A stretch of 24,702 nucleotides of DNA from a virus, in the IMG/VR virus record IMGVR_UViG_3300045120_000179, positions 1-24,702 of that record, one strand, 5' to 3'. Under the pieces are notes generated by a model. It was not told where the DNA came from. It did no database searches and worked only from the letters and a program-made list of their open reading frames with translations. Both the position numbers and the translations under genes were made by a program. Shown here one piece after another: positions 2,056-22,477 of this stretch (position 1 is its first letter; the number at the start of each line of letters is the position of its first letter).

Positions 2056-2083
2056 CGGCTTATCCACTTACTACGGATGGTGG

Positions 2084-2545: not shown

Positions 2546-4095
2546 CGCACGGCGGCGTTCTTCTCGCGACGCTCGCGCTTCGAACTCTCGCGCACCCACG
2601 CCAGCGTGCCGCTCTTCGGCTCCGGCTTTTCCTTACGCTTCGGCGTCGGCGGAACGTGCAGGTTCAGCCCGTAGCCAATCCAGCTCAATGCGTCGACGAA
2701 GTCATCGTGGACCCCGAAGGGGAACTGTAACATTTCCTGGCGTGCCTGCATCCACCAGGGCGCGTGCGTCGGGAAGAACACCATGCCCATGGCGATGCGC
2801 GCCATGATCGACTGGGCGCGGGCCTTCTTGTCGGCGATCGGCGTCACCTCGAACACGGAGCAGAAGGTATTCCGCTCGACCATACGCTTACGCAAGAACG
2901 GTCCGATGGATTTGCTGATGTGGCCGCGCTCGGCCCACCACAGCAACGGCTTGTACTTGACCACCAGGTCAATCATTTTTTCGACGACGACATTGGTCGA
3001 GTAGTGGCCCCAGACCAGGTCCTCCATCACCCAGATGTGCTGGTCCTCGTCGATGCCGATGACCATGCAGCAGGTCTTGTCACGGTCCTGGTGCAACGAC
3101 ACCGCGTGATCGGAGGCCGCGAAAAAGCGCAGCTTGTCGTTCGGCGGGCGCTCATTGCGCGCGTAGGTCCGGATGCCTTCGGCGGGGAAGAAATTGCCCT
3201 TCTCAGGAGTTGGGCTGCCCTGATACAGCGCCTGAAAACCGCGAGGATCGGCGGCGCGCATCTCTTCCAAGTAAGTCGTAGGAAAACGCTCGGGCCAGAG
3301 CGCCTCCCCCTCTTTCCTGCCGAGCGGATCTCCAGATCCGAGCGACAGGGCGGGGAGGTCAATGATCCGCCACTTCGGACCTTCGACAGGTGAGTAATCG
3401 GGGTTGCGCGGATCGGTCAGACGGCCGACCAGGTCGTCCTCGTGCCAGCGCGTCTGGATGATGACGATCCAGCCGACCGAGCTGAGCAGGCGCGTCTTGG
3501 CGACCTGGTTGTACCAGGACCACAGCTTGTTGCGCGTCACCAGGCTGTCCGCCTCGACGCGGTCCTTGATCGGATCGTCGATGACCAGGCCGATCGAGCC
3601 GCGGCCGGTAATTGCCGAGCCGCGGCCGACGAAGAACACCTTGCCCTGCTGGTCGGTCTCGATGCGATCGACCGAAGCGGTGGTCAGCGGCACGCCGGGA
3701 AAGACCTGCTGGAAGACTGGATCCTCGATGAACTGCCGGACCTCGCGGCCGAAGTCCCAGGAGAGCTTGTCGCTATAGGTCGCCAGGATGAGGGACTCGG
3801 CCGGGTGGCGGCCCATGAACCAGGCCGGGAACAGCCGCGAGCTCAGCTGCGATTTGCCGTGCCTCGGCGGCACGTTGATGATGAGACGGCGGATCTTGCC
3901 GGCCTCGACCTGCTCGAGCGCCGCGGCGATCACGCGGTTGTGCTTGGTTGTGATGTACTGCGATCGGGTGGCGTCGTCCGGCGCCGCCGGATCCGGCATC
4001 ATGAAACGAGCAAACATATGTAAGTCATCTTTGGCCGCGATGGCCGCGCGCCGCCTGAGCAGCGCGCGGAGATAGCGCGGATCAGGCCGCGTCAC
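2533..4095 (-). CDS. terL: Terminase large subunit (ATPase/nuclease)
   Basis: This 520-aa protein is the DNA-packaging motor, an ATPase with a nuclease that cuts concatemers at the portal. Walker A is VPPRHGKS at residues 75-82, Walker B is GLVIDDPI at 169-176, and a coupling motif IIQTRWHEDDL is near 213-223. The RNase H-like nuclease domain shows an Asp in AASDHA near 329, Glu389 in WWAERG and Asp residues in VHDDFVDAL near 462-470, a plausible metal-binding triad. The length is normal for the family. The start is a GTG at 4095, three bases after the TGA of the upstream gene, so translation is probably coupled. The C-terminus is basic and Lys/Arg-rich. The stop overlaps the 3' end of the opposing HNH gene by 13 bases. 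Confidence 0.97.
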   Translation of the reverse strand: MTRPDPRYLRALLRRRAAIAAKDDLHMFARFMMPDPAAPDDATRSQYITTKHNRVIAAALEQVEAGKIRRLIINVPPRHGKSQLSSRLFPAWFMGRHPAESLILATYSDKLSWDFGREVRQFIEDPVFQQVFPGVPLTTASVDRIETDQQGKVFFVGRGSAITGRGSIGLVIDDPIKDRVEADSLVTRNKLWSWYNQVAKTRLLSSVGWIVIIQTRWHEDDLVGRLTDPRNPDYSPVEGPKWRIIDLPALSLGSGDPLGRKEGEALWPERFPTTYLEEMRAADPRGFQALYQGSPTPEKGNFFPAEGIRTYARNERPPNDKLRFFAASDHAVSLHQDRDKTCCMVIGIDEDQHIWVMEDLVWGHYSTNVVVEKMIDLVVKYKPLLWWAERGHISKSIGPFLRKRMVERNTFCSVFEVTPIADKKARAQSIMARIAMGMVFFPTHAPWWMQARQEMLQFPFGVHDDFVDALSWIGYGLNLHVPPTPKRKEKPEPKSGTLAWVRESSKRERREKNAAVRQGW

Positions 4096-4723: not shown

Positions 4724-5170
4724 TCAGGTGAAGGTGAAATCGACCGCTGCGGTGCGCAGCGATCCCGTATGCACTTCCACCGGGCATACCGCCGGGACCA
4801 CGAACAGCGAGGGCTTGACGCCGGTCGTCAGCTCGGTGTCGGAGACCATCGTCGTCGGTTCGGCATTGCCGTTGAAGACGATGATTGAATCAGGGGTGAA
4901 GCCGGTGCCGATCACCGACATGGTGATGTCGGCGGCATCGCCGGCGATCGCGGTGTCCGGCTCCAGACTGTCGAGTGTCGGCTCGGCCACCGGCTCAGGC
5001 GGCTCGGGAGCACCCTCGTAGGTCGTCCAAGTCTCGTCGCGATAGACCGTTTCGGCCGCCATCTCGATGACGCGACGCGCTCGCTCCTTCGGCAGCACGT
5101 TGTGAAACGGCGTAATCGCCGCGTCCAATGCGTCGGACAATGCCTGTTCGTTTTCCTCGATGGTGGCCAC
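4724..5170 (-). CDS. Small protein with IPT/TIG Ig-like domain
   Basis: The frame is open back to 5230, but the GTG at 5170 is preferred: GAGGAGG lies about 6 bases upstream and immediately follows the stop of the previous gene. The resulting 148 residues have two parts. Residues about 11-48 are helical and end in TVYRDETW, matching the module seen in the neighbour at 4099-4707. Residues about 64-148, from PTLDSLEPDTAIAG through VIGTGFTPDSIIVFNG to the end, have the pattern of an IPT/TIG immunoglobulin-like fold. In phages such domains decorate virions or tails and may bind carbohydrate on the cell surface; the actual location here is unknown. A second IPT/TIG gene is at 6713-7105. Confidence 0.8.
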   Translation of the reverse strand: MATIEENEQALSDALDAAITPFHNVLPKERARRVIEMAAETVYRDETWTTYEGAPEPPEPVAEPTLDSLEPDTAIAGDAADITMSVIGTGFTPDSIIVFNGNAEPTTMVSDTELTTGVKPSLFVVPAVCPVEVHTGSLRTAAVDFTFT

Positions 5171-5181
5171 GGCTGCCCTCC

Positions 5182-5412
5182 TCAGGCTGCTTCTGGATCT
5201 TCCGGATTTACGTCCTTGGGCTGCGGCCAATCATAGTTGACACGATCACGCTGGCCTTCCAGCGAATCGATCACCTCCACCTTGGACAGCCTGCCGCGGT
5301 ACGTATCGATCAGCTCGGCCAGGGCGAGCTCGAAATTCTTGATTGGCTCATTAGCGTTCGGCATTGCGTCCTCCCAGCCAGGGCTGGCTTTGACTTCGGC
5401 GAATGTGATCAC
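5182..5412 (-). CDS. Hypothetical 76-aa protein with shared helical module
   Basis: No family is recognised. The gene starts with GTG at 5412 inside a GTGA overlap with the two-TM gene before it. Residues about 27-62, with LAELIDTYRGRLSKVEVIDS at their centre and NYDW at their end, resemble the helical modules of the two following genes, which end in YRDETW and YRDESW. The last dozen residues are acidic and proline-containing (PKDVNPEDPEAA). The similarity is by eye and weaker than that between the other two copies. Its stop codon abuts the Shine-Dalgarno of the next gene. Confidence 0.65.
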   Translation of the reverse strand: MITFAEVKASPGWEDAMPNANEPIKNFELALAELIDTYRGRLSKVEVIDSLEGQRDRVNYDWPQPKDVNPEDPEAA

Positions 5413-5627
5413 GACGCGAGCCTCGGCAGATGCAGGTCACCGCCGAGACCGATCAGGTTCAACAACAGCACGATAATGATCAGCACCATCAGCACCATCA
5501 ACGCAATCTTGATGATGCGATTCGGCGGGTCCGGAATCGGGACCGTGTCGAGCACGTAGATGCAGAGCCAGTAGAGTAGGCCCAGCACGAGCAGGTAGAT
5601 GATCAGGGTGATGAGTCCGGAGATCAC
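5409..5627 (-). CDS. Two-TM small membrane protein, holin candidate
   Basis: The 72-aa product has two hydrophobic segments, about residues 4-26 (LITLIIYLLVLGLLYWLCIY) and 40-62 (IKIALMVLMVLIIIVLLLNL), joined by a short loop with VPIPDPPNR. This resembles small membrane proteins of the Thivi_2564-like type, which occur in phages and bacteria. The endolysin three genes upstream has no signal peptide, so a membrane partner is needed for its release and this is the best holin candidate in the window; that function is inferred. The start is GTG at 5627, overlapping the previous TGA (GTGA), and the stop overlaps the next GTG in the same way, so it is translationally coupled on both sides. Confidence 0.75.
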   Translation of the reverse strand: MISGLITLIIYLLVLGLLYWLCIYVLDTVPIPDPPNRIIKIALMVLMVLIIIVLLLNLIGLGGDLHLPRLAS

Positions 5628-5863
5628 GGCTTGCCCTCCATCAGCTTGCGCACCGTATCACAATCCTCCGCAACGCTCGTGAATGAGCCATCGGCCAGCC
5701 TGATCACACATTGCACGGCGTCGGCTAAAACCTTGTTCGCGCCGCCCTGCGGCGGGGTCGACAGCAGCTGCGTGACCTGGCGCGGGTTAATCAAAACGAT
5801 GCGGCCGTCGATCATGTGCAGCATGACCAGCGCGACGGCGGCGACCGTGATAACACCCGTCAT
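5624..5863 (-). CDS. Small protein with N-terminal TM and FlbD-like segment
   Basis: The 79-aa protein begins with a hydrophobic stretch (GVITVAAVALVMLHM, about residues 3-17). It is followed by a compact domain: GRIVLINPRQVTQLL, then VQCVIRLADGSFTSV and DTVRKLMEG. The order 'NPxQV ... V.L.DG....V.E....V..LM' resembles the short FlbD-like fold found in many alphaproteobacterial and phage small proteins. It starts in an ATGA overlap with the coiled-coil gene and ends in a GTGA overlap with the two-TM gene, inside the lysis cluster. With its single TM it could be a lysis accessory such as an antiholin or spanin component; no lipobox is visible, so this stays open. Confidence 0.65.
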   Translation of the reverse strand: MTGVITVAAVALVMLHMIDGRIVLINPRQVTQLLSTPPQGGANKVLADAVQCVIRLADGSFTSVAEDCDTVRKLMEGKP

Positions 5864-6054
5864 TCCTTCTTGTTCGCCTTCTCAACCAGCCGTTCGAGTC
5901 GCGTCGACGGGCGGACGGCCAGCGCCTTGTCGATCATCTCGCACAGCGTCCTGACGATCTCGGCGAGATTGCCCGGCAAGGAAAGCAGCGTCAGCCGGTC
6001 GCGCACGACAGCCAGGGTCTTCTCGAGCTCGGCGATGCGCTGCTCGGCCCTCAC
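5860..6054 (-). CDS. Small coiled-coil protein in lysis cluster
   Basis: The true product is about 64 residues, starting at the GTG at 6054 that overlaps the endolysin TGA (GTGA); the frame is open further upstream only as a shadow of endolysin. The sequence is helical and charged: AEQRIAELEKTLAVVRDRL predicts a short coiled coil, followed by a second helix (NLAEIVRTLCEMIDKALAV) and a basic tail RLERLVEKANKKE. Its stop overlaps the next start as ATGA. No family is recognised. The position between endolysin and two small membrane proteins suggests a lysis or virion accessory role. Confidence 0.65.
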   Translation of the reverse strand: MRAEQRIAELEKTLAVVRDRLTLLSLPGNLAEIVRTLCEMIDKALAVRPSTRLERLVEKANKKE

Positions 6055-6716
6055 GGCTCGACCACCAACCCGTTGACGATGACGCGCAGGCCCCTCGGCA
6101 CGCTGAGCGTCACCGGCTCCGACGGCACCCCCGGGTCCGTCACGTCGTCGACCCAGGCTTCCTGCAGCGCCGCCAGGAAGACCTCGTGATAGCCGGCGAT
6201 CTCGACGTCGCAATCATGGCCGTTGACGATCTCGCGGGCGCCGACCGGATCATCGGTGTCGTCGTTGAAATACTCGCCGAGCTTGCGGCCGGTGAAAAAC
6301 CCCTCACTCATGCCCCTGAACAGGATCCGCGCAGATATCAGACTATCCAGCGCCACTTCGGGATGCGCCACCAGATCGCGATCGCCGACCAGGCCGAGCA
6401 TGGCGCTGGCGTTCCTATAGTTGGTTTCCCAGGTAAGCATGACAAATCCGCGACCGATATACGGCCAGTACTCTTTGCTTTGTAAATATTCCTGGGAGCC
6501 ATATTCAGTAATAGGCCACATTTTCGTGGCGCATTCTTTGTAAACCGTGGCCAAAACGTACGCCAACCACCTAACGTCATCCATCGGCGTGCCGGTCTGC
6601 TCGCCCTCCCAAAGACCGAGAATGACGTTCTGGCCGTCGACCTGTTGCTGATCGAGGGCGCCGGAAAACAGCCGGCCGCGAACCTGGTCGAAATAGATGC
6701 CGCGGTCGAAGGTCAT
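6051..6716 (-). CDS. GH19 chitinase-like endolysin
   Basis: The 221-aa protein is a probable peptidoglycan hydrolase acting at lysis. The pattern LAYVLATVYKECATKMWPI (residues 51-69) places the likely catalytic Glu at 61. YIGRGFVMLTWETNYRNASA (86-105) is the hallmark of GH19-like phage lysozymes, and AREIVNGHD (160-168) with AGYHEVFLAAL completes the family pattern. There is no signal peptide, so release should depend on a holin. Residues about 190-221 form a Pro/Val-rich tail beyond the catalytic domain, of unknown role. It starts in an ATGA overlap with the IPT/TIG gene upstream and heads a run of four tiny coupled genes, an unusual place between tail fibres and terminase. Confidence 0.9.
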   Translation of the reverse strand: MTFDRGIYFDQVRGRLFSGALDQQQVDGQNVILGLWEGEQTGTPMDDVRWLAYVLATVYKECATKMWPITEYGSQEYLQSKEYWPYIGRGFVMLTWETNYRNASAMLGLVGDRDLVAHPEVALDSLISARILFRGMSEGFFTGRKLGEYFNDDTDDPVGAREIVNGHDCDVEIAGYHEVFLAALQEAWVDDVTDPGVPSEPVTLSVPRGLRVIVNGLVVEP

Positions 6717-7105
6717 GGCGTAAAGCTCAAGCCCTTCGGCGCCGTCTGGAACACGCCCTTACGCACCGAAATGTCCCACTTGGCCGGCGGCGTCACCAGG
6801 CTGGGCTTGACCAGGATGGTCATCGACGTCGCCGAGACGAAAGTCTTGGTGAAAGGGGTATTGTTGACCAGCACCTCGTCGGTCGCCGCGAAATTGGTGC
6901 CGGTCAGCGTGATCGTGGCGTCAGGAGCGGCGCCGTTGGCGACCAGGGTGACCGGGCTGATCGAGGCCAGCGTCGGAATGTTGGTCGTGTTGGCCGACAT
7001 CCACGCCATGGCGTTCTCGGCGTGGAGAACATGGTAGGTCTTGCCGTCATCGCCGTTGAGGACGACCTTGTCGTCGCCGCGTACGCGGAAGCTGGTGATC
7101 TGCAT
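6713..7105 (-). CDS. Small IPT/TIG-domain structural protein
   Basis: The 130-aa product has an N-terminal part (residues 1-40, with VVLNGDDGKTYHVLHAENAM and AWM) that resembles the small 80-aa and 67-aa proteins upstream (ENGVEWHLTTASEVGDWL). This is followed by an IPT/TIG Ig-like domain from about 43 (IPTLASISPVTLVANG, ITLTGTNFAATDEVLVNN) to the end. It could be a virion or tail decoration protein. The start ATG at 7105 has GGAG about 9 bases upstream, and the stop is in an ATGA overlap with the endolysin start. The fused arrangement suggests domain shuffling between neighbouring small genes. Confidence 0.8.
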   Translation of the reverse strand: MQITSFRVRGDDKVVLNGDDGKTYHVLHAENAMAWMSANTTNIPTLASISPVTLVANGAAPDATITLTGTNFAATDEVLVNNTPFTKTFVSATSMTILVKPSLVTPPAKWDISVRKGVFQTAPKGLSFTP

Positions 7106-7107
7106 GG

Positions 7108-7350
7108 CTATTTTCTCCGTTTCCTGGGGGCAGGCGGCTCCTCTGCCGGCTTCGCCTCCGGTGGTGGTTCATAGGCCCGCACCGTGCCGCCGTCCTCGAC
7201 GTAGCGCAGCCAGTCGCCGACCTCGCTGGCAGTGGTGAGATGCCACTCGACGCCGTTCTCGTCGGTGCAGATGATGCGCTGCTCGCCGGACTTCAGGTTG
7301 GCGTCGGCCATCTCGTCGGGCGGGGCTTGGACACAAGAGACGTAGGGCAC
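7108..7350 (-). CDS. Small fibre-partner protein, downstream copy
   Basis: The 80-aa protein begins MPYVSCVQAPPDEMADAN and contains CTDENGVEWHLTTASEVGDW. It is a clear duplicate of the 67-aa protein at 8445-8648, differing mainly in a C-terminal extension rich in Pro, Glu and Lys/Arg (PPAPRKRRK). It starts with GTG at 7350, four bases after the fibre stop. Each copy follows its own fibre gene, so a role as fibre chaperone, connector or assembly factor is plausible but not shown. No known family is recognised. Confidence 0.75.
   Translation of the reverse strand: MPYVSCVQAPPDEMADANLKSGEQRIICTDENGVEWHLTTASEVGDWLRYVEDGGTVRAYEPPPEAKPAEEPPAPRKRRK
7181..7350. repeat. Duplicated partner-gene DNA (second copy at 8479-8648)
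   Basis: The 170 bases here and at 8479-8648 align without gaps, with about 13 differences counted by eye. They encode the conserved part of the two small fibre-partner proteins. Most differences sit near the start codon, while the central roughly 100 bases differ at only two positions. Confidence 0.9.
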
Positions 7351-7354
7351 GGGT

Positions 7355-8455
7355 TCACATCCTCGCGTTGAATGTCACGGTTGACGCAAATACCCCGGTG
7401 TTCCCGGTCACGTTTGCGGTGCGGCCTTCCTGTGCGTAATCGGCCCCTATAGATAACGTGCCGACAGTTGCTGGAAACGCCACATTTGAAATATTCACGC
7501 CAGATAAACTAGCCGCTGTACGTTTAGGGACCTTGATCCACGCCATTGCGTAGTAAGCCGCTGCATTCGTCACATTGCTGTTGAACCAAGACGTGGCTTT
7601 CTCATAGTACCGTTGGCACGCAGCCAGTTCAGCAGCCTCGTCGGGCATCTGCCACGGCGGCGCAAGCCCGGTGTTGTTGCGGTCGAGATAGAGGCCGACA
7701 TCAAATAGCTCAAAGGTATTGTTCACCGCTCCAACGCCATTGGTCTGCGCCGGTGCTCCCAGCGCGTTAGAGGCTTGCCATCCCAACACGCCCGTCACAG
7801 TCGGCCCACACGCAAGACCAATCTTCAGTTCCAGTGCTCTTGAAGAGTCAACCGCCCACGTTCCCGCAACATCCCCCGGCACGACAAAGACCTGTTCCGT
7901 ATCCGTGCCGGCCTGGCCCGCCGTGATGGTAAATGTTGTGATGTAGGAACGACCACCACCACCGTTGAAGTTCACCGAATAAGTGCCAGCCGGTCCCTTG
8001 AAGCCAAAGCGCAGCACGACCTGTCGCGCCGCCGCGGAGCCCCACCTGAAATCGGCGATGCGAGTGCCTTCGATCATGGTGGTGACGTAGGCAAGGTCGA
8101 CGCCGGTGATTGACGTGTCGGCGGTTGTAACAATCCAGCGCAGCCGGTTTGCTGAACCGTTCGGTGTCGGCACCTGCACGCGCTGCGATGAAAGAACCGC
8201 CGCTCCGCTAATATTTATCGACCACTGATCGGCGGCAAAATATCCGGTGACACTGCCAAGTGTGTTGCCGGTTTCCTGACTGATCTGCATCGCGCCGTTG
8301 ACGATGCGGTTGCGCGCCTCGGCGGTCAGCGGAACCGGCGGGCTTGTGCTGCCGGTGACCTGTATCCACTTCGCGCCGTCCCACTGCCACGACGGGCCGC
8401 CGGGCGGCGAGTAGATCGCGCCAACGGTCGGTGAGGCGGGGAAGTCAAACGCCAC
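7355..8455 (-). CDS. Tail fibre / receptor-binding protein, short copy (366 aa)
   Basis: After a short N-terminal segment (FPASPTVGAIYSPPGGPSW, then WDGAKWIQV) the protein enters a phage-fibre module that starts with RNRIVNGAMQISQE at about 48-61. It continues as a beta-rich jelly-roll-like domain and then has GLYLDRNNTGLAPPWQMPDE followed by AELAACQRYYEK at about 253-285. The same module forms the C-terminal half of the 618-aa fibre upstream, so this is a shortened paralogue lacking the long shaft. The last 80 residues differ strongly between copies, which fits a variable tip binding the host surface. The start is GTG at 8455, overlapping the previous gene by 11 bases. Confidence 0.85.
   Translation of the reverse strand: MAFDFPASPTVGAIYSPPGGPSWQWDGAKWIQVTGSTSPPVPLTAEARNRIVNGAMQISQETGNTLGSVTGYFAADQWSINISGAAVLSSQRVQVPTPNGSANRLRWIVTTADTSITGVDLAYVTTMIEGTRIADFRWGSAAARQVVLRFGFKGPAGTYSVNFNGGGGRSYITTFTITAGQAGTDTEQVFVVPGDVAGTWAVDSSRALELKIGLACGPTVTGVLGWQASNALGAPAQTNGVGAVNNTFELFDVGLYLDRNNTGLAPPWQMPDEAAELAACQRYYEKATSWFNSNVTNAAAYYAMAWIKVPKRTAASLSGVNISNVAFPATVGTLSIGADYAQEGRTANVTGNTGVFASTVTFNARM
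7636..7702. repeat. Conserved fibre DNA anchor A (copy at 8879-8945)
   Basis: Sixty-seven bases match the copy at 8879-8945 at 65 positions by eye. They encode DVGLYLDRNNTGLAPPWQMP and the DEA that follows in both fibres. The DNA on either side diverges strongly. Confidence 0.9.
8273..8314. repeat. Conserved fibre DNA anchor B (copy at 9522-9563)
   Basis: Forty-two bases are identical at 8273-8314 and 9522-9563 and encode RNRIVNGAMQISQE in both fibres. With anchor A it brackets the diverged central domain, a suitable site for recombination between copies. Confidence 0.9.
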
Positions 8456-8651: not shown

Positions 8652-10508
8652 TCACAACCTCGCGTTGGCAACAAGATTTTGATAAGCCTGTGCCGTCTGG
8701 AATATTGAAATAGAGTAAGGCGTAACGTTCCCGAGAGTAAATCCAGTTCCGCCACCTGTAACAGCAGGATTAGACCGCATTGTTGCTCTTAACATAAGAG
8801 CGTAGGCACTAGTGGCGGAATTGACTATCGTATTGCTTAATTGCTGATAATACCTCATACACGCCGCCAGTTCCTGCGCCTCGTCGGGCATCTGCCACGG
8901 CGGCGCGAGCCCGGTGTTGTTGCGGTCGAGGTAGAGGCCGACATCGGCAAGCTGGATATGCGGGCCGGTGATGCTGGCGGCGTTCGCCATGCCCGCCACG
9001 CCAAGGAAAAAACCAGCTTGCCAGCCCGCCACGCCAATGTAGGTCGTCCCGCTGGCGAAACAGATCGCCAGATAAGCACCGACCGCACTCGTCTTCGGCC
9101 AAGTGCCGGTGGTGTCGCCGGGAATAACCAGCGTCCGCGTCACGTAGGTGTTGATCTCACCGGCAGCGATGGTGAACGCGCCAACCCACGTCCTGTTGCC
9201 TGCCGCGTTCCTGATGCTCGCAGCATAGGTTCCAGCCACACCGCACATGACGGTGAACCGCAGGACTGCCTGCCTTGCAGCAGCAGTTCCCCAGCCGAAA
9301 TCGACGAGGCGCGTGCCCTCGATGGGCTGATTTATCTGAAAATAGTCGCCTGCCGCCAGTGACGGCTTTGCTGTCGCGATATTGAAATTGAGGCTGGTGA
9401 GAGCGCCGCCCGGTGTCACCACGGTGCTGACATGCGCAGCGGAAATGGTTGGACCGGCATATTGAAACAGCCACTGATCGCAGAGGTACGCACCAGTAGT
9501 TCCCGTCGCGGTATCCCCAAGTTCCTGACTGATCTGCATCGCGCCGTTGACGATGCGGTTGCGGCTCTCGGCGGTCAGAGCACCGGCACCGCCAGAGAGG
9601 TTGATCTGCACCCACTGCGACGTGTCGGCGTCGGTGTACCAGATGTACAAATTGCCGGTGTCGCTCTCCCACCACAGCTGAAACGGTTGCGGCGACGATG
9701 GCGCATTATCAGACACCGAAGTAACGGCAGGCACCGATACCGCTGCCCACGCGGCGTTCTTCCTGGCGTACTGGGTGCCGTCGCTGGGCGCGTCGGAAAG
9801 CTTGGTATCAGCATATTGCTTGGTCGCCGCGTCGAGTGCGTTGGTCGGATCAGCCGGCAACGTCACCGGCACGGTCGTCACCAATGCGCTGCCGCCGATC
9901 AGCAGCTTCTGCGCGCTCTGAACGGTAAAGTTCAGCTGCGACGAGCCGCCATAGAGGCCGGTGCCGGTGGTGCCGAAGGTGATGCTGGCGGCGCTTGCCG
10001 AGCCGTTGGCCGGCATCACCAGCGGCCCGCTCATGCTGTCGCCGGCCTTGCTGACCTTGCCGTCGATGGCCGCCTGCTGGGCCGTGCTGACCGGCTTGTT
10101 GGCGTCGGAGGTGTTGTTGACGTTGCTCAGGCCGACGGCGGCCTTGTCGAGCACCTGCCAACTCTTGTCGCCGCGCCAGTATTGCGTCGACAGGCCGAGC
10201 GCGATCGGCGGCTCATAGTCGCTTGATAATGGTACTTGATCCCAATTGGCCACATTGAAGGCGCCGGCGACGATCGTGGCTTTGGCTCGGTAAAGCTTGC
10301 CGGCGTTCCAGACGAAATCGCCGGCGACGTAGTCGGTGGTCGCCGAAAAGAAACGCAGCGCCAGCAGATCCATCGCTGCCTTGCTGGCGTCGATGACGCC
10401 AAGCTGCTTGTCGGGATAGTTGGTATAGAGCTCGCCAGGCTCACGCGATCCCGCTGCAGGGCGCGTGTTCTTGACCGATGAACGTATGGTCTGAACGCGG
10501 ATCGGCAT
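8652..10508 (-). CDS. Tail fibre protein, long copy (618 aa)
   Basis: This multidomain fibre has a virion-attachment-like N-terminus, a carbohydrate-binding-like segment at about 58-92 (DYVAGDFVWNAGKLYRAKA, NVANWDQV), the classic fibre motif LSNVNNTSDANKPVSTAQQA at 127-146, AGDSMSGPLVMP at 155-166, and ALDAATKQYAD at 224-234. From about 317 (NRIVNGAMQISQE) it carries the same C-terminal module as the 366-aa paralogue, including the conserved GLYLDRNNTGLAPPWQMPDE block and a divergent tip. It acts in host attachment. The DNA coding for the last 60 residues is visibly more AT-rich than the rest, which suggests exchange of the tip. The ATG is at 10508. Confidence 0.9.
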   Translation of the reverse strand: MPIRVQTIRSSVKNTRPAAGSREPGELYTNYPDKQLGVIDASKAAMDLLALRFFSATTDYVAGDFVWNAGKLYRAKATIVAGAFNVANWDQVPLSSDYEPPIALGLSTQYWRGDKSWQVLDKAAVGLSNVNNTSDANKPVSTAQQAAIDGKVSKAGDSMSGPLVMPANGSASAASITFGTTGTGLYGGSSQLNFTVQSAQKLLIGGSALVTTVPVTLPADPTNALDAATKQYADTKLSDAPSDGTQYARKNAAWAAVSVPAVTSVSDNAPSSPQPFQLWWESDTGNLYIWYTDADTSQWVQINLSGGAGALTAESRNRIVNGAMQISQELGDTATGTTGAYLCDQWLFQYAGPTISAAHVSTVVTPGGALTSLNFNIATAKPSLAAGDYFQINQPIEGTRLVDFGWGTAAARQAVLRFTVMCGVAGTYAASIRNAAGNRTWVGAFTIAAGEINTYVTRTLVIPGDTTGTWPKTSAVGAYLAICFASGTTYIGVAGWQAGFFLGVAGMANAASITGPHIQLADVGLYLDRNNTGLAPPWQMPDEAQELAACMRYYQQLSNTIVNSATSAYALMLRATMRSNPAVTGGGTGFTLGNVTPYSISIFQTAQAYQNLVANARL

Positions 10509-10511
10509 TGG

Positions 10512-10967
10512 CTATCTAGCCCTCAACTTCCACCAGCACTTACGCGCTTCGGACATCTTTTTGCGCGTCTCAGCCGATTTCGGCCGGCGCCCCGTTTCGC
10601 GGATCTGCGCGACCTTCAATTGTTTCTCGGCTTCGGCCGCCGTGTCCCAAAACGATCGACCGTGGCCTCGCCCTTTGCGTAGCATATCCAGCGCATTGTC
10701 GCTCTTGGTGCCGAGGAACAGGTGCCCCGGTTCGATGCAGTGCCGGACATCGCACGAGTGCAACACCAGCATGCCATCCGGCACCAGCCCGAAAGTGTCG
10801 ATCCACGCTGCAACATGCGTTCCGACAATTTTGCTGTGCGGTGACGGCATCGAGACGCCACCATAACCGCTGCTGTTGACCGGGCCGGTCCACTCCAAGC
10901 AACCGGTCGTCTGATTTCTCCGAGCGCGATTCCAGAGTTTTTCGCGCGTCGTTCTGGTTAGGGTCAT
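10512..10967 (-). CDS. HNH homing endonuclease with NUMOD3-like tail
   Basis: The frame is open to a TTG at 11012, but the ATG at 10967 is the better start, giving 151 residues (MTLTRTTREKLWNRARR). The core GCLEWTGPVNSSGYG at 22-36 and VLHSCDVRHCIEPGHLFLGT at 68-87, followed by DNALDM, is a textbook HNH_3 nuclease: His70, Cys72, Cys77 and His82 are seen and Asn91 is conserved. The tail RRPKSAETRKKMSEARK at 127-143 resembles NUMOD3, a DNA-binding module of homing enzymes. It lies in the same orientation as the tail genes, between a 78-aa protein and the 618-aa fibre. No strong ribosome site is visible. A mobile role is inferred from family and context. Confidence 0.88.
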   Translation of the reverse strand: MTLTRTTREKLWNRARRNQTTGCLEWTGPVNSSGYGGVSMPSPHSKIVGTHVAAWIDTFGLVPDGMLVLHSCDVRHCIEPGHLFLGTKSDNALDMLRKGRGHGRSFWDTAAEAEKQLKVAQIRETGRRPKSAETRKKMSEARKCWWKLRAR

Positions 10968-10996
10968 GTAACCAGAGTACCATTGATCGGTACATA

Positions 10997-11233
10997 CTAG
11001 TACACCCCACAATCGATCGTCGCGACCGCGGTCCAGACATATGTCGGACCTGACCCTGAGACGAGCACGTAGTCGGCGCCCGGCGCCACTGGTACGCTCG
11101 AGCCGCCACCGCTGTCCATCCAGGCGCTCGGATATTGGTCGCCGGCCGGCGCGACCACCGTCACCACCTGCCCAGCCGACGGATCCGAAAACGGAACATG
11201 CAGCGCGACGCGAAAGGCCTGTGTGGTGCCCAT
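10997..11233 (-). CDS. Hypothetical 78-aa protein, probable tail component
   Basis: This short, non-hydrophobic, Gly/Ser/Val-rich protein (FRVALHVPFSDPSAGQVVTV, SGPTYVWTAVATIDCGVY) looks like a small beta-sheet structural component. It starts with ATG at 11233, one base after the TGA of the large fibre gene, so it is probably translated by coupling and may be a fibre partner. No family is recognised. An HNH gene follows 30 bases downstream. Confidence 0.65.
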   Translation of the reverse strand: MGTTQAFRVALHVPFSDPSAGQVVTVVAPAGDQYPSAWMDSGGGSSVPVAPGADYVLVSGSGPTYVWTAVATIDCGVY

Positions 11234-13743: not shown

Positions 13744-14176
13744 CGACCTGGGTTCGGGGTGAAGGACCAGATCGTTCGAGGCGGGGGTGGTTTTAGCATA
13801 CGCGGATCGCGCTTAAAACGGCAGTTTGGGGTGGACCTGGATACCGAGTTGAACATAAGACCCAGCAGCGGCGGACTTAAAATCTCGAAAAATTTGGCGC
13901 TCAGGGGTGCACGCGGCGCGGCCGCACTCGCGCAGGCGGCCCAGGGGTGCGACGCGGCCTGGCACGCCGCCGCGGCGCGTTCGCGCCCCATTCGGCGGCT
14001 GCCTGATCCGCCGTACTGCCTTCGAAAGTGCAATGATATCAATGGGTTGCAACTCGAGCCCTTCACCGTCCCCACTTCTATCCCCACTCCCACGTCGCGG
14101 ATCTATGTCCGCCACCTGGCATTAGTAGGACTACTAATTCGCCGGCCAGCGCGGCCCGCGAAGGGCGCCGCGCGGG
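13744..14176. other. Non-coding or weakly coding stretch with operator-like palindromes
   Basis: No convincing gene was found here. Frames on both strands are open because of the high GC content and read as low-complexity Arg/Ala/Pro protein. The stretch contains an 18-base palindrome at 14121-14138, a hairpin next to the stop of the zinc-knuckle gene (14154-14177), and a 13-base direct repeat GCGGATCGCGCTT at 13802-13814 that recurs at 14188-14200. It is a candidate control region for the structural arm. Confidence 0.4.
14121..14138. promoter_or_regulatory. Perfect 18-bp palindrome, operator-like
   Basis: The arms are ATTAGTAG and CTACTAAT around the 2-base centre GA. It is AT-rich in a GC-rich surrounding and non-coding, so it could bind a dimeric regulator. 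No matching protein is known from the sequence. Confidence 0.4.
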
Positions 14177-14177
14177 C
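14154..14177 (-). terminator. Hairpin after zinc-knuckle gene, weak terminator candidate
   Basis: Seven-base arms GCCCGCG and CGCGGGC flank a 10-base loop, beginning at the stop codon of the gene ending at 14177. The stem is GC-rich but no T-run follows on the leftward strand, so termination is uncertain. Confidence 0.3.
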
Positions 14178-14614
14178 TACCGAATTAGCGGATCGCGCTT
14201 GCTAGTCAAACCTAATGATTGATTCCTATGCGTCTCGATCACCTTGCCCCGCTCGACATAGGATCTCGGCATCGCCACACCAATTGGAAAGTCCTCCTTC
14301 AGCCACAGCTTGAACAATGCCGCTCTAACAGCTGACGGACCGCTGCGAGATGAGATGAAGCCGGGCGCTCGCTTGGCCGCTACGGCGTATGCCTGCTTAT
14401 GCCCACCATGCGATCCACAACGATCGGCGCCCTGCAGCGCGTCACGCCTGCAACGCTCGCCAGTGGTCCTCGCCGTAGCCGTGCACTGCCTCCGGGACGG
14501 ATGCCCATCGCCGAACTGTGAACGCTTGAAGCCTGGCGGGAACTTGGCGTCCTTCCGCCCACAGTTCTTCGACGGCAGACGCCAGCTCGGGCGGTTGTTA
14601 TGTCTCGGTTCCAT
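14177..14614 (-). CDS. Zinc-knuckle 'HGG'-motif phage protein
   Basis: The 145-aa protein has the cluster QCTATARTTGERCRRDAL followed by DRCGSHGG. Cys44, Cys55, Cys66 and His69 form a probable zinc-binding site with C-x10-C-x10-C-x2-H spacing. This 'CTAT...RCR...G...C..HGG' pattern is common in small phage and mobile-element proteins; the biochemical role is not settled, with nucleic-acid binding likely. GAGG lies six bases before the ATG at 14614. It is the first leftward gene after the repeat region, and its leader contains the AT-rich block and alternating CG tract. The C-terminal half is unremarkable and helical. Confidence 0.75.
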   Translation of the reverse strand: MEPRHNNRPSWRLPSKNCGRKDAKFPPGFKRSQFGDGHPSRRQCTATARTTGERCRRDALQGADRCGSHGGHKQAYAVAAKRAPGFISSRSGPSAVRAALFKLWLKEDFPIGVAMPRSYVERGKVIETHRNQSLGLTSKRDPLIR

Positions 14615-14654
14615 CTACAACCTCTTTCAAAGGCGGGCACAACCTATAGACGCT

Positions 14655-14677
14655 CGCGCGCGCGCGCGTGCGCACGC
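14655..14677. repeat. Alternating purine-pyrimidine (CG) tract, Z-DNA-prone
   Basis: Twenty-three bases alternate pyrimidine and purine without a break, mostly CG. A 16-base perfect palindrome (GCGCGTGCGCACGCGC) occupies 14662-14677. It lies in the leader of the gene starting at 14614, next to the AT-rich block. Confidence 0.6.
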
Positions 14678-14692
14678 GCTGTACGGCCAACG

Positions 14693-14772
14693 GAGATTTT
14701 TTTACCTATCTGTAATTGCATTACATGTACCTTAAGTTGATTTATTTTTTACATCTCTAATTTATATAAAAC
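14693..14772. promoter_or_regulatory. AT-rich block, candidate unwinding element or promoter
   Basis: About 80 bases of strongly AT-rich sequence with T-runs (ATTTTTTT near 14696, TTTATTTTTT near 14740) and TTTATATAAA stand out in a GC-rich genome. It lies directly beside the ACCTGACACG repeat cluster. It may be the duplex-unwinding element of an origin and also carry the leftward promoter for the gene at 14614. Confidence 0.5.
14711..14725. promoter_or_regulatory. 15-bp palindrome inside AT-rich block
   Basis: TGTAAT and ATTACA are perfect complementary arms around TGC. The size and AT content fit an operator for a dimeric repressor, but no partner is identified. Confidence 0.35.
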
Positions 14773-14930
14773 CTAACACGCTGACACGCATCCATCTATA
14801 CGCCTTACCGCCTATGGGCTCCAGACCGTGTCAGGTTTGCTAAAACCTGACACGACCTGACACGACCTGACACGCCATTCCGCCGCCCGCGTGTCAGGTT
14901 TGGTGTCAGGTTTTCACCGACCTGACACGC
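14771..14930. repeat. Cluster of ACCTGACACG repeats (iteron or operator array)
   Basis: Perfect ACCTGACACG copies start at 14845, 14855 and 14865 (in exact 10-base tandem) and at 14920. Perfect inverse copies (CGTGTCAGGT) start at 14827 and 14890, and a one-mismatch inverse copy starts at 14902. Degenerate copies lie at 14771 (ACCTAACACG) and 14780. The inverse copy at 14827 and the direct copy ending at 14854 form a perfect 12-base inverted repeat with a 4-base centre. The cluster fills the gap between the primase-helicase stop and the AT-rich block, as expected for origin iterons or a multi-site operator. Confidence 0.75.
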
Positions 14931-14932
14931 CC

Positions 14933-17506
14933 TCATGGCAGGTCGATTCCCTGCTCCGGTACAACCCGCAAACCATTCTTCTCGACCTCGATGCGCAGCG
15001 TCTCGGCATCCATCGCGTCGCACGTCAATTCGTGCGCGCGACTACGCACGTAGACACGCGGCCGATCCTTGCCGATCGCCAGGCGCCGCTGTTGCCTGGG
15101 GTGCACACCCGGCATCGACAGTCCAATCATCCGCCGCATCACTTGGCTGAATTGCGCCTTGCCACTTTCGCGCAGCATGATCTCGCTGCCATCATCCATC
15201 AGCAGGTTCTGCATGTGCAGCAGCAGCTGCTCCTTGGTGAAGGCGATGCCCGGCATTGCCCGCAGCGCCGTCTGCATGGCCGCGTCGACATCGCTGACGC
15301 TGAGCTCCATCATGCGCTCGCGCGCCGGCGTCATCGGCGGGATGCCGACCATGTTGAACTGCGAGACATCGCGCGCCTTCAGCCAGGCCGCCAGCGCCGC
15401 CAGGTTGCCGTCGACCTCCATCCAGGCATAGATCCGCATGGCCAGCGCCTCATCGAGCCTGGCGCCATTGCTGAGCACCGCGAAGCGCCGATCGCTGCGC
15501 GGCAGCATCAGCGCGTCATTGTGGTTCGAGGCGATGATGAACGAGGCGACGATCCAGCTGTTGCGCCGCGGTAGGTTCTTGCCGTGCACCTCCATCCAGC
15601 GCGGGCCAGGCTCGATGCGTTTCAGGCGCTCATAGTTGCTCTTGCGCTCGCCGAACTTGCCGGTGCCCTCATGGCTCTCGTCGACACAAACCAGCAGATT
15701 GTCGGCCATCCAGTCGGTATAGACCGCCTGCGCGCTCTGCCCGGTCAAGATGTCGAAGTCGATGTGCGCGACGTAGCGGCGTCCCCACAGCCGTTCCAGG
15801 ATCTTGAACAGCGTGCCGCGGCCGGTGCCTGCCTGCTCATCACCCATGTCCGTTGTCGCCACCATGATGACGGCGTGGCCCGGCATACCCGGCTTCTGGT
15901 GCTTGTGCGCCAGCCAATCAAGGAAGTAGGCACGCTCAATCGGGTCCGGCACCAGGTGCTCAATGAACTCCAGGAACGTATCAAGCTCGCCCTCGCCCTC
16001 ATGCCGGGCAGGCACATAGAGGTTCTTGTAGACGCGCCCCTCGAACTCATAGAGCGGGAACGGCATGTCGGGGCGCATATCGTAGGTCAGCACCTTCTTC
16101 TTCGCCGCGTGGCTCAACCACTCCTTGGTGGCGTAGATGAAGCCGACGCCGCGCTGCTTCGGCCGCTTGTACTCCTGGTAGAACTTGTCGAATTCGGCGG
16201 TCGTCCGGAGATAGGGCGGATGCACGCTGTAGATCCGTGTCACCATGCTGCCGATCTCGGTCAGCGCGAATGAGCGCAGCATCCATACCAGCCCGTGCCC
16301 ATACTCGGCGCGCGGCGGCGGTCCTGGGTCGTCCGGCTCTTGTGGTGGCGGTTCGTCGCCATCGCCACCACCGCCCTCGCCTGGCGCGCTGTCGAGCTGC
16401 TCCTGCAGATCGCCGAGCTCACCCAGGTCGGTCGTCGTGACATCCGGCTGTTGATCCTTCCAGCGATGCTCGGTGCAATCCTCCCAGTTCTCGATGATGA
16501 ACTGGTTGCCTGGGCTCGATACGAACGCCTTGCAGTGGGCGCGCGAGCTCGACAGGCTCCATGATTCCCAGCTCATGCATCCCGATATGCCGCTGCTGGC
16601 GCCCGGCTCGAGCTGTTTCTCCAGCTCTGTCAGCTCGATCTCGTCGCCATCCCTGGTGATGAACGTCATGCCTGGCTCAAGGTCATAGTCCTTGCCAGGC
16701 GCCTTGCCGCTGAGCTCCGGGATCAGCATCAGCTGCTGTTCCAGAATCTTGTCGGCGATGTCGATCAGCGCGCCGACATCCTCGAACGGGAACACCGGCG
16801 TCTCGTCGAGACGCACCTCCGCGGGCGATCGGTCGGCTGGCACGCACACATATTCGCGGCCTTCCGAGTGTGGACCTTCATACGCAAAATAGCGGCCATG
16901 CGAGGCGCCGCCGAACACCTCGACCTTCTGCTTCTCGAGCATGCGGCTGATCGCCTTGCGCTCTTCCTTGCTGATGCCTTCGCGGGTGAGCTCGGCAAGC
17001 AGCGTCCGGTCGGCCGTGTACTTGTGCGTCTGCGATTGCTTGTAAGGCTGTGAGATCCGCCCGAAATAGGCGCGCTTCACGGCGCCAGAGTTGCGCTCGA
17101 TGGCGCCCTTGAACCATGCCGGCCAGTGTTTGCGAAAGGCGGCCAGCACCTTCTTGAACAGCTTCGGATCCGGGATGTCGACATCGACGACAAACATGTC
17201 GTCCTGCAGCCGGATGCCGGTGCCCTTGTAGTCCTTGTGACCGCCGCGTGGATTGTCCCAGGCGGCGATCGCCTCGGCGTCGTTCGGCATTGTCGTCCAG
17301 CCTGGCGGCACCTGGGACTTATTCTGCGAGGGAATGATCGGCCAGCCTTTGGCATGTGCTGCCAGGCGGCGCAGCTTCAAAGGCGTATTGCGGGAAATCG
17401 GCAATGGTCGTAAGGGTTTGCGCAAGATTGTCTTCCTCCGTGTAGCAGCGGGCGGCAGTCTTTGCGGGCCAGGTCGTGCTTCAAACACGATTTGGCCCTC
17501 TTTCAT
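14933..17506 (-). CDS. Primase-polymerase / helicase fusion (NrS-1-like, DUF5906 helicase)
   Basis: This 857-aa protein joins two replication activities. The N-terminal part (about 50-215) has the bifunctional primase-polymerase pattern: HAKGWPIIPSQNKSQVPPGW at 51-70, a metal-binding FVVDVDIPD with Asp108 and Asp110, and GGASHGRYFAYEG near 199-211. An acidic Gly/Pro linker spans about 373-398. The C-terminal part is an AAA-type SF3/DUF5906 helicase with Walker A AGTGRGTLFK at 559-568, Walker B LLVCVDESHEG at 604-614, a sensor Asn in IASNHND and arginines in PRSDRRFAVL near 669-678. It probably primes and unwinds phage DNA. The ATG at 17506 overlaps the VRR-NUC stop (ATGA). Its 3' end adjoins the repeat cluster, a natural site for an initiator gene. 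Confidence 0.88.
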   Translation of the reverse strand: MKEGQIVFEARPGPQRLPPAATRRKTILRKPLRPLPISRNTPLKLRRLAAHAKGWPIIPSQNKSQVPPGWTTMPNDAEAIAAWDNPRGGHKDYKGTGIRLQDDMFVVDVDIPDPKLFKKVLAAFRKHWPAWFKGAIERNSGAVKRAYFGRISQPYKQSQTHKYTADRTLLAELTREGISKEERKAISRMLEKQKVEVFGGASHGRYFAYEGPHSEGREYVCVPADRSPAEVRLDETPVFPFEDVGALIDIADKILEQQLMLIPELSGKAPGKDYDLEPGMTFITRDGDEIELTELEKQLEPGASSGISGCMSWESWSLSSSRAHCKAFVSSPGNQFIIENWEDCTEHRWKDQQPDVTTTDLGELGDLQEQLDSAPGEGGGGDGDEPPPQEPDDPGPPPRAEYGHGLVWMLRSFALTEIGSMVTRIYSVHPPYLRTTAEFDKFYQEYKRPKQRGVGFIYATKEWLSHAAKKKVLTYDMRPDMPFPLYEFEGRVYKNLYVPARHEGEGELDTFLEFIEHLVPDPIERAYFLDWLAHKHQKPGMPGHAVIMVATTDMGDEQAGTGRGTLFKILERLWGRRYVAHIDFDILTGQSAQAVYTDWMADNLLVCVDESHEGTGKFGERKSNYERLKRIEPGPRWMEVHGKNLPRRNSWIVASFIIASNHNDALMLPRSDRRFAVLSNGARLDEALAMRIYAWMEVDGNLAALAAWLKARDVSQFNMVGIPPMTPARERMMELSVSDVDAAMQTALRAMPGIAFTKEQLLLHMQNLLMDDGSEIMLRESGKAQFSQVMRRMIGLSMPGVHPRQQRRLAIGKDRPRVYVRSRAHELTCDAMDAETLRIEVEKNGLRVVPEQGIDLP

Positions 17507-17811
17507 TCAAGGGGCGCGCCCGCGTCTGGGCCGCACAGCCTCTCCATCAGCCGATCGACGTCGGCGCACGTCTTGCAGATCGCTACAATTGCTCCCAGCG
17601 CCTCGTAACGCTGGTGCCGCTCTCGCTGATGAACGGTCGTGCGACCGCCTCGTGGACGTTTTAGCTCGACGAAAGCGACACGGCCAGCCGGCAAAACAAT
17701 TACCCGATCGAAATAGCCGCGGCCGCTTGGGCTAATCGTCTTTTCGGCGACACCGCCGAGCGCGGCTACTCTTGACTGCAGGTAGGATTCGATGTCACGT
17801 TCGAGGTTCAT
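17503..17811 (-). CDS. VRR-NUC domain nuclease
   Basis: The 102-aa protein is a stand-alone VRR-NUC nuclease of the PD-(D/E)xK superfamily, a class linked to structure-specific cleavage in phage replication and recombination. The catalytic pattern is FDRVIVLPAGRVAFVELKRP, with Asp35 and Glu49-Leu-Lys51; a Gln62 follows in the next helix. The N-terminus (MNLERDIESYLQSRVAALGG) is the usual leading helix. It is followed in ATGA overlap by the primase-helicase gene, so both are made together, and it is divergent from the DUF2800 nuclease gene with only 36 bases between starts. Confidence 0.93.
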   Translation of the reverse strand: MNLERDIESYLQSRVAALGGVAEKTISPSGRGYFDRVIVLPAGRVAFVELKRPRGGRTTVHQRERHQRYEALGAIVAICKTCADVDRLMERLCGPDAGAPLE

Positions 17812-20302: not shown

Positions 20303-22477
20303 ATGGAGCGGGCGCGCGGCATCACCTTTGCGCCCGAGCATATCGGCTGGATCGATTTCGAATCCCGCTCACAGGTTCCGATTGACGCGGGGGCCTATCG
20401 GTACAGCCTGACAGCCAGCGCGAGCGTACTCGCGCTGGCGATCGGCGACGACCAGGTCCGCACCTGTGCCGTCGCCGATTTGTCTCAGCGCCTCGATTGG
20501 CGCGACATGCCGGACGATCTGAAGAAGCATTATGCGAAAGTGCAGCGTGGCACTGCAATTTTCGTCGCCCACAACAGCGGCTTCGACCGCTGCATCTGGA
20601 ACAATTCGACGATCGGGTTCCCCAGACTTGAGCCCGAGCACATCATCTGTAGCCGGGTGCAGGCGACCAATGCCGGCCTGCCCGCCGCGCTCGATCTCGC
20701 GGCCAAGTTTGCCAATGTCGGGCGCAAACTGCCGAGCGGCAAGGCACTGCTCAAGCTGTTTATGTTTCCTGGCGCGGTCGGCGAGATCGCCACGCATCCG
20801 GACGAATGGCAGCAGCTGCTCGACTACGCTCGCGTCGATGTCGAGGTGATGCGCGATCTGTTCCAGAATACCAGGCAGCTGCCGATCGAAGAATGGCGCC
20901 AGTTCTGGGCCGGCGAACGCATCAATGACCGCGGCGTCGGCGTCGACGTAACGCTGGCCACGGCCGCGGCCAGGATAGCGGCGATCGACAAGCTGCGGAC
21001 CGGGAGCGAGCTCGCCAATCTGACCAACGACAAGGTTACCACCGTCAATCAGACCAAGCGCATGCTCGAATGGCTGCGTCTCGTGCTGCCCTCCGATGGG
21101 CGCGACATACTGACCAAGCGGGCGGAAGAGGTCGACCTCGATACCGGCGAGCTGATCAAGCCCCGCAAGCAGTCGCTGGAGCGCGCTCGCATCGTGCGCC
21201 TCCTTGCCTACCTCCACGCGCAAAGCCCGCTCAGCGGGCCGCTGCGTGACGCTGAGCGGCTCTTGCAGATCCGTTTCTTTGGCGGCTCCAAGACACCTGC
21301 CAAATTCAGCAGGATCCTGGATCAGCATGTCGATGGCGTGCTGCGCGGTCAGTACGTGTTCGGCGGCGCCAGCCAGACGGGCCGCTATTCGTCGAAAGGC
21401 GTCCAGACCCACAACCTGGCACGCGATCCGCTGCCCTATGAGCTCGAGGCGATCAATGCTCTGCTCGCCGGCGCCGATTACGATGAATTCGCGGCGATCG
21501 GCGACGACACGCCAGTCGCCCGCAAGCTGTCGCTGCTGATCCGGCCGACGCTGGTCGCCGCTGATGGCAATGCCTTCGCCTGGTGCGATTGGGCCAATAT
21601 CGAGGCCAGGCTGCTGCCGTGGCTTTCTAACGATCCGAAGGCCGAATACCGCCTCGACAACTTCCGCGCCGTCGATGCCGATCCGAGCATCCCAGACATC
21701 TACAAGGTCACAGCCGCACGCATGCTCGGCATTGACGAGCCCGCGAAGGTTACCAAGCCGCAGCGCCAGGTCGGCAAGGTGATCGAACTCGCCGCCGGAT
21801 TTGGTGGTTCGGTCGGCTCGATGCTGGCAATGGCGGCCTCCTACGGCATCCACGCTACCGAAGCGGAAGCCAAGGAGGCGATCTCGCGCTGGCGCAAGGA
21901 CAATCGCTGGGCAGTCAATTTCTGGGGCAAGCACGATGAGAGCGGTAGCTTCGGCATCTGGGGCGCCGTCAATCAGGCGCTGCTGTATCCGGGCAAGCCG
22001 TTTCCGGCGGGGCGTGTCACTTACATCTACGCGCGCAACATGCACGGCGGCACGCTGTTCTGCCGGCTGCCGTCCGGCCGCTATCTCGCCTATCGCAAGA
22101 TTCACTGGGAGCGGGTCAACGAGATCGATGAGGACACCGGCAAGATCATCGCCATTCGCCGCGAGCTGCGGTTCAGCCGTGACGTCGGCCGGGTCAAGGC
22201 CTGGTATGGCCTGATGACCGAGAACATCGTCCAGGCGACCGCGGCCGATATTTTGCGCGGCACGCTGGTGCGGCTCGAGGAAGCCGGCCTGGCGCCGCGT
22301 GTGCATACGCATGACGAGGTGCTGATCGAGACCAGCGAGAATCAGATCGAAGCGGCCGGCGAGCGGCTGCGCGCCATCATGGAGCAAGGGTTCGAATGGT
22401 CGGCCGGTCTGCCGATCAAGGCCGATGTCGAGATCGGCCGCTGGTATTCAAAGGCAGAGGAGTCGGTGGGGCTGTGA
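20303..22477 (+). CDS. Family A DNA polymerase with 3'-5' exonuclease
   Basis: The 724-aa polymerase is the phage replicative enzyme. Proofreading motifs are Exo I WIDFE (Asp18, Glu20), Exo II FVAHNSGFD (His90-Asp95) and Exo III YARVDVEVM (Tyr175, Asp179). The polymerase part shows GRYSSKGVQTHNLAR near 360-374, motif A WCDWANIEARLLPW (Asp429, Glu434), motif B QRQVGKVIELAAGFGG (488-502, Arg488 and Lys492) and motif C VHTHDEVLIE with Asp671. No 5'-nuclease domain is present, as expected for phage PolA-type enzymes. It ends in a GTGA overlap with the helicase gene, giving coupled production of polymerase and helicase. Confidence 0.96.
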   Translation: MERARGITFAPEHIGWIDFESRSQVPIDAGAYRYSLTASASVLALAIGDDQVRTCAVADLSQRLDWRDMPDDLKKHYAKVQRGTAIFVAHNSGFDRCIWNNSTIGFPRLEPEHIICSRVQATNAGLPAALDLAAKFANVGRKLPSGKALLKLFMFPGAVGEIATHPDEWQQLLDYARVDVEVMRDLFQNTRQLPIEEWRQFWAGERINDRGVGVDVTLATAAARIAAIDKLRTGSELANLTNDKVTTVNQTKRMLEWLRLVLPSDGRDILTKRAEEVDLDTGELIKPRKQSLERARIVRLLAYLHAQSPLSGPLRDAERLLQIRFFGGSKTPAKFSRILDQHVDGVLRGQYVFGGASQTGRYSSKGVQTHNLARDPLPYELEAINALLAGADYDEFAAIGDDTPVARKLSLLIRPTLVAADGNAFAWCDWANIEARLLPWLSNDPKAEYRLDNFRAVDADPSIPDIYKVTAARMLGIDEPAKVTKPQRQVGKVIELAAGFGGSVGSMLAMAASYGIHATEAEAKEAISRWRKDNRWAVNFWGKHDESGSFGIWGAVNQALLYPGKPFPAGRVTYIYARNMHGGTLFCRLPSGRYLAYRKIHWERVNEIDEDTGKIIAIRRELRFSRDVGRVKAWYGLMTENIVQATAADILRGTLVRLEEAGLAPRVHTHDEVLIETSENQIEAAGERLRAIMEQGFEWSAGLPIKADVEIGRWYSKAEESVGL

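Follow-up and report, generated by a model that had tools for sequence, protein, structure and literature searches.

A candidate initiator-dependent replication origin directly 3′ of a Prim-Pol/DUF5906 helicase gene in a phage contig

In the 24,702-nt stretch of phage DNA analysed here (the window, an incomplete IMG/VR virus record), a cluster of nine short repeats adjoins the most AT-rich block of the contig and ends 3 bp from the stop codon of a primase-helicase gene. We consider this array a highly likely candidate for the phage's initiator-dependent DNA replication origin; in the best-supported reading, drawn from sequence comparison, it would be bound by the Prim-Pol/helicase encoded next door. 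The same idea had been put forward in a first-pass annotation made from the letters of the window alone, and comparison with relatives now supports it, because the position of the array is conserved across diverged relatives though its motif is not, and because in natural Escherichia coli variants the type of the initiator C-terminus tracks the unit sequence exactly.

The left part of the window carries genes for large terminase, portal, tail fibres and endolysin, while its right part holds a replication module with genes for an endonuclease, the Prim-Pol/DUF5906 protein, an exonuclease, a family-A DNA polymerase (20303-22477) and an SNF2-type helicase. The array is situated between the initiator gene and the next leftward gene, that is, at the boundary between the replication genes and the leftward block. 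Two neighbouring tail-fibre genes (7355-8455 and 8652-10508), both assigned to phrog_4492 and adjoined by an HNH endonuclease gene (10512-11012), represent a possible duplication.

The cluster (14771-14929) consists of units of ACCTGACACG with at most two mismatches (six exact, two with one mismatch, one with two) in both orientations: ACCTAACACG (14771-14780, plus strand, one mismatch), the degenerate CGCTGACACG (14779-14788, plus strand, two mismatches), an exact unit on the minus strand (14827-14836), three exact plus-strand units in 10-bp tandem (14845-14854, 14855-14864 and 14865-14874), an exact minus-strand unit (14890-14899), ACCTGACACC (14902-14911, minus strand, one mismatch) and an exact plus-strand unit (14920-14929), the one that lies 3 bp from the initiator stop codon. 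Dyad 1 (14827-14854) is a perfect 12-bp inverted repeat with arms at 14827-14838 and 14843-14854 and a 4-nt centre, CGTGTCAGGTTT GCTA AAACCTGACACG; dyad 2 (14902-14929), 75 bp away, has the same geometry, with 8 bp separating the 10-mers. The number of units (about nine), the mixed orientation, the tandem triplet, the inverted pair and the 3-base distance to the gene end were thus all described correctly in the first-pass annotation. Folded as single-stranded DNA, the array strand was far more stable than its shuffles (z -7.3) and formed three hairpins built from the units, with dyad 1 as a hairpin. The short triplet GTG is present on one strand of every exact unit.

All six exact copies of ACCTGACACG in the whole record fall inside the cluster, so the repeat is not scattered over the contig or placed before other promoters. 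Six copies of one 10-mer were observed within 103 bp, while 200 first-order Markov simulations of the window reached no more than four. An 8-mer test on the 400 bp past the initiator stop gave seven copies against at most three in shuffled sequences, and of 234 further 400-bp stretches in the window none had as many. When bacteria and viruses were scanned for pairs of ACCTGACACG units within 30 bp, the window's array did not turn up a second time. Tandem repeats of unrelated bacteria and viruses were common among the matches, and the multi-unit viral matches had regular spacings suggestive of coding sequence or simple repeats. The ACCTGACACG motif yielded nothing relevant in the literature. 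Separately, we saw GTGTCAGGT repeats, tandem or in mixed orientation, in unrelated bacterial contigs (L094:4272-4311, L103:3268-3310 and L128:5190-5260) at apparently intergenic positions; these are perhaps small mobile repeats. The mixed-orientation copies in L103 and L128 led us to consider a REP/RAYT-like mobile repeat for the window too; the idea was dropped, as the cluster is confined to a single locus and its position is common to relatives with other motifs.

The AT-rich block, a proposed DNA-unwinding element, adjoins the array and occupies about 82 bp (14694-14775), in agreement with the roughly 80 bases originally noticed beside the repeats. It has the lowest GC content of the contig: GC drops to 18% in its poorest 50-bp stretch, a value to which none of the other 50-bp stretches sampled along the 24.7 kb falls. 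All nine units lie on the gene-proximal side of the block and none on the distal side. A Z-DNA-prone CG tract had been described as another neighbour of the repeats. The tract is real (14655-14679; at 25 bp the window's longest run of alternating purines and pyrimidines), yet the AT-rich block lies between it and the repeats, and by reading it is absent from most relatives' arrays; judged from these sequences, it is probably not a conserved or general part of the module. GC skew, suggested earlier as a check, was computed and was uninformative: there was no clear change at the array, which speaks, if anything, against an origin.

The proposed initiator (14933-17506, minus strand; 857 aa) has Pfam matches to Prim-Pol and DUF5906 and is an SF3-type primase-helicase; upstream of it in the same replication module is a gene of VRR-NUC/endonuclease type (17503-17811, minus strand) with PHROG hits. 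In a predicted structure (mean pLDDT 80), residues 407-822 resemble the helicase region of NrS-1 polymerase (Z 24.6, rmsd 3.7 over 358 residues), residues 40-320 resemble the prim-pol of pRN1 ORF904 (Z about 11), and there is likeness to the SaPI5 primase-helicase fold (Z 16); at sequence level the match to NrS-1 polymerase has a phmmer E-value of 0.004. The C-terminal domain (residues about 735-842; 14981-15304, minus strand), which we propose as the reader of the units from this model and from the covariation described below, gave weak but repeated winged-helix matches when modelled alone with AlphaFold (pLDDT 77, Z 4-7), and Foldseek returned no match below E 0.001 for the domain alone; on these weak matches the domain is probably a winged helix.

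The window primase and the window polymerase, used as single-protein queries, found no relatives in IMG/VR, and the primase found none in genome contigs either; relatives came to light with alignments as queries. The window protein aligned with two cyanophage proteins led to 12 loci and a larger alignment to 26 loci, the two sets overlapping. With near-identical contigs counted once, we tested 26 distinct lineages: the window, Nsp-JY18/Mel-JY33 and 24 IMG/VR lineages. The 400 bp past the helicase stop were compared with 200 shuffles. A strong array (reached by 0 of 200 shuffles) was present in 15 of 26 lineages and a weaker one (2-10 of 200) in four, while seven had none by this test; in three of these seven (L171, L172 and L180) the next gene appears, by reading, to start directly after the stop, where an array would not fit. 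L136 has the least marked of the 15 strong arrays: of 107 stretches elsewhere in its locus, 11 equal it.

Almost every lineage has a motif of its own, while the position 3′ of the helicase gene is kept, even where the next gene is a different one. The relatives' units include ACCCGGGTCC, TAGGCCA, GTGGGTCA, TGGGCTCA, TGGACCAG, TGTGGCCC, GGTGGACA, ATGGACCC, TGCGTCCC, TCGTGGGC, GTAGGTAC, TGGTGACA, GGATACAT and others; they occur in mixed orientation, mostly on both sides of the AT-rich minimum, and the lowest-GC stretch of a locus usually adjoins the array or falls in the same stretch. Nostoc phage Nsp-JY18, whose genome is complete, has eight exact copies of ACCCGGGTCC, all of them in one 380-bp cluster at the initiator 3′ end; three of its units (L147:13352-13381) are within the 3′ end of the initiator gene, so that this array starts in coding sequence. 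An array beside this helicase is not universal: among the Prim-Pol/DUF5906 phages outside the window's group, a small sample of an annotated collection, most were without one, and the 400-bp test detected none in five of six such phages or in BPP-1.

Several further observations concern the relatives themselves. In L135-L143 (at about 4800-7450; L137 excepted) Prim-Pol and helicase are encoded by separate genes that adjoin or overlap, while the window and other relatives have one fused gene. By reading, the arrays of L135 and L139-L142 carry a near-identical non-repeat element, AAAAAGTTCCA(TCG), between units, and several of them also have a TACCC motif past the AT-rich block; both could possibly be host-factor or primer sites. 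One contig of 94,958 bases (IMGVR_UViG_3300021082_000020) contains two different Prim-Pol/helicase loci (L136 and L145) with different unit types; either assembly fused two phages here or the replicon has two origins. In Rhizobium phage RHph_N65 (L157:11014-11210) a Prim-Pol protein whose helicase is of another type (AAA_25) is followed directly on its 3′ side by twelve copies of GCGGAGAT, mostly direct, a comparable layout in a second helicase family.

Natural variation in E. coli prophages bears on the question of what reads the units. Phage vB_EcoM-683R1 encodes a distant relative of the window initiator and has ten GGTGAC(G/A) units past its stop. The E. coli proteins are likewise only distantly related to the window protein (28.8% identity over 39% of its length); among complete E. 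coli genomes the initiator gene was found on 47 chromosomes. Six prophage copies aligned to 683R1 were 97-98% identical to it, with variable columns concentrated at residues 703-746 (20 of 44 columns, compared with 13 of the 702 that precede them; Fisher p 6e-19). Identity over the first 2077 bases of the gene is 98-100%, while the last ~50 codons and all iterons switch, with at least three types. The ten aligned units keep their places and geometry and change together, to GGTGACG, GGTGGCA or GGTAACA. Unit positions 4 and 5 vary in all ten units, position 7 in nine and position 1 in a single unit; no variation occurs at positions 2, 3 and 6, although 47% of the spacer columns between units are variable. 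Unit type agreed with C-terminal type in all 10 typed prophages (four GGTGACG, four GGTGGCA and two GGTAACA). It did not follow the neighbours: two unit types were seen with downstream gene WP_000034494 and two with WP_000868571, and GGTGACG was found with two different upstream regulators.

Since unit type matches the C-terminal type and not the neighbouring genes, the sequences are most simply explained if the initiator C-terminal domain is the reader of the units. In the E. coli set little distance separates the array from the C-terminal codons, and co-inheritance alone would link the two. Linkage, however, explains co-inheritance and not an identical change in every unit, which calls for a common reader.

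Some E. coli genomes showed other changes in this gene. In 82.0312, 89-3156 and JNEC-KY176 (H133-H135) the match was limited to the first 986-1303 bases of the initiator gene, and a VapE domain is annotated in two of the three; these partial matches and annotations suggest that the Prim-Pol half may have been swapped between helicases. In VL7S7 (L189:2941-3638) the 3′ end of the initiator gene carries an IS1 element, and no array region was matched beyond it; this insertion is a natural disruption.

A related signal was seen in the window's own lineages. Given similarity of the helicase core, a partial Mantel test related C-terminal similarity to unit similarity among eight close loci (r 0.49, p 0.006) and among 18 loci (r 0.29, p 0.006), while the helicase core alone gave r 0.07 (eight loci) and 0.21 (eighteen loci). 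L136 and L140, which share the unit GTGGGTCA, are mutual best matches in the C-terminal domain and not in the core. The E. coli evidence may be carried over to the window through homology, position and this independent Mantel result. Related phages thus very probably keep the arrangement while changing tags and reader together, as far as these comparisons reach.

One could picture initiation at the array as follows. Several initiator molecules would bind the units via their C-terminal domains and assemble helicase hexamers; the helicase would melt the adjacent AT-rich block, the strands opened in this way would receive their first primers from the Prim-Pol domain, and the family-A polymerase of the phage (20303-22477) would extend these. 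The units would then be the iterons of an origin that travels beside the gene of its own reader.

The rival that survives best, though we consider it unlikely, is that the array is an accessory element like crr of P4: bound by the initiator and needed in cis for copy control or helicase loading, with the start site in the unsequenced part of the genome. P4 crr is needed in cis yet annotated apart from the origin, and a site needed for replication is not necessarily the start point; the same repeats as in crr recur at the annotated P4 origin 4.7 kb away, and the incompleteness of the window contig leaves space for such an arrangement. However, there is no second unit cluster in the window or in the complete Nsp-JY18 genome, and in most relatives the AT-rich block is inside the array region, while the P4 record sets crr apart from ori.

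A different possibility is an origin driven by structure, in which extruded stem-loops and not the unit sequence are functional, as argued for pRN1 and BIP-1 (PMC4234260). Single-stranded folding is indeed far above shuffles in the window (z -7.3, three hairpins), as it is better than shuffles in the array strand of L139 (z -5.3), but inverted units yield hairpins automatically, and three of the window units are direct tandems. The concerted change of all E. coli units with the C-terminal domain points to reading of sequence, and the 3′ region of BPP-1 has neither an array nor unusual folding; we therefore regard this explanation as quite improbable.

The first-pass annotation had named a multi-site operator as the main alternative. 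An operator for a transcription regulator of the leftward late genes would suit the site, since the array lies between the replication genes and the leftward block and a promoter could be there. Yet no match to a sigma-70-type promoter or terminator was found in 14100-15100, and the array is kept at the helicase 3′ end in loci with different next genes. The operator fits less well than an origin, since the units are tracked neither by adjacent regulators nor by the genes downstream, and in E. coli their type goes with the initiator C-terminus; we rank it below the crr-like element and think it very improbable. Packaging (pac) and partition (parS-like) sites can also carry repeat clusters, which as general knowledge is what speaks for one here, but with no par genes in the scanned proteins, the terminase gene 10 kb away and an array position that follows the helicase gene across relatives, such a site is the least credible of these explanations.

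With the array read as an origin, a further proposal is that the initiator C-terminal reading domain and the array together form a swappable specificity cassette, and that a SaPI/PICI-like module of initiator gene, matching iteron array and AT-rich block is widespread in tailed phages; here we hold the balance to be about even. If the cassette is real, there would be selection to change origin specificity, for example against incompatibility with co-resident prophages or against use by satellites. A module so similar, present in tailed phages with a wide range of natural unit types, would link the replication of satellites, P4-like elements and Prim-Pol phages. The E. coli variants offer a natural series for studying how a probable winged-helix initiator reads iterons, and a way to ask whether origin specificity sets prophage compatibility. 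A practical rule for uncultivated phages would be to seek the origin directly 3′ of the Prim-Pol/DUF5906 helicase gene. We found no earlier description of these phage arrays in the open-access literature; an account in a subscription journal is possible.

Among known systems, the polymerase of phage NrS-1 is likewise a single-protein primase-polymerase-helicase of a phage and the best structural match of the window helicase part; it differs in recognizing a primer start on a single-stranded template, TTTGGTTA or GTG (PMC8718748), and not an iteron array. The pRN1 ORF904 and BIP-1/BPP-1 proteins share with the window initiator the combination of Prim-Pol, SF3 helicase and C-terminal DNA-binding domain (putative in the window), as well as a place for the origin 3′ of the gene, mapped in pRN1, proposed in BIP-1 (PMC4234260) and a candidate in the window. 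In pRN1 this 3′ DNA is essential; the origin suggested for phage BIP-1 takes the form of a stem-loop (PMC4234260). However, pRN1 has a single large stem-loop (about 100 nt) and no iterons, and BPP-1 has no array by the 400-bp test. The window array folds strongly as single-stranded DNA, though as three hairpins.

P4 resembles the window in having a mixed-orientation repeat array close 3′ of the initiator gene: crr comprises ten type 1 repeats, about 45 bp past the alpha stop. The P4 repeat GGTGAACA is also similar to units of relatives, GGTGGACA in L142 and GGTGACA in L175 and L182. Unlike the window initiator, which is a Prim-Pol (AEP) protein, the alpha primase is of TOPRIM type (PMC4234260), and P4 has a separate ori with the same repeats. 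The window, an incomplete contig, shows a single cluster.

The reading of downstream repeats by a helicase C-terminal domain, as proposed for the window, has a counterpart in the SCCmec helicase Cch2: on its own, the C-terminal domain of Cch2 binds direct repeats that lie downstream of the operon (PMC7581432). Cch2 differs in belonging to a chromosomal cassette with a separate primase-polymerase. The SaPI/PICI origins, with P4 crr and pRN1 the closest of the known systems, are directly 3′ of rep and, in SaPIs, are read by the C-terminal domain of Rep (PMC7581432, PMC6092414). In Gram-negative bacteria the PICI origin, 3′ of pri-rep, has an AT-rich region with a set of iterons on either side; for EcCICFT073 plasmid replication was shown, and the authors stated that no other known bacterial replicon shares this arrangement (PMC6092414). 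Like SaPIbov1, SaPI1 and EcCICFT073, the window has its array directly 3′ of a primase-helicase gene (3 bp), with multiple short element-specific units (nine, unique in the contig) and an AT-rich region; C-terminal reading, known for Rep, is suggested on the window side by covariation in E. coli relatives and by the Mantel result. In PICIs, however, two iteron sets always flank the AT-rich region, while the window units are all on one side, and PICIs are satellites, while the window carries the genes of a phage (terminase, portal, tail fibre and endolysin). A layout known until now chiefly from satellites of phages is thus seen here in a phage, with one-sided units.
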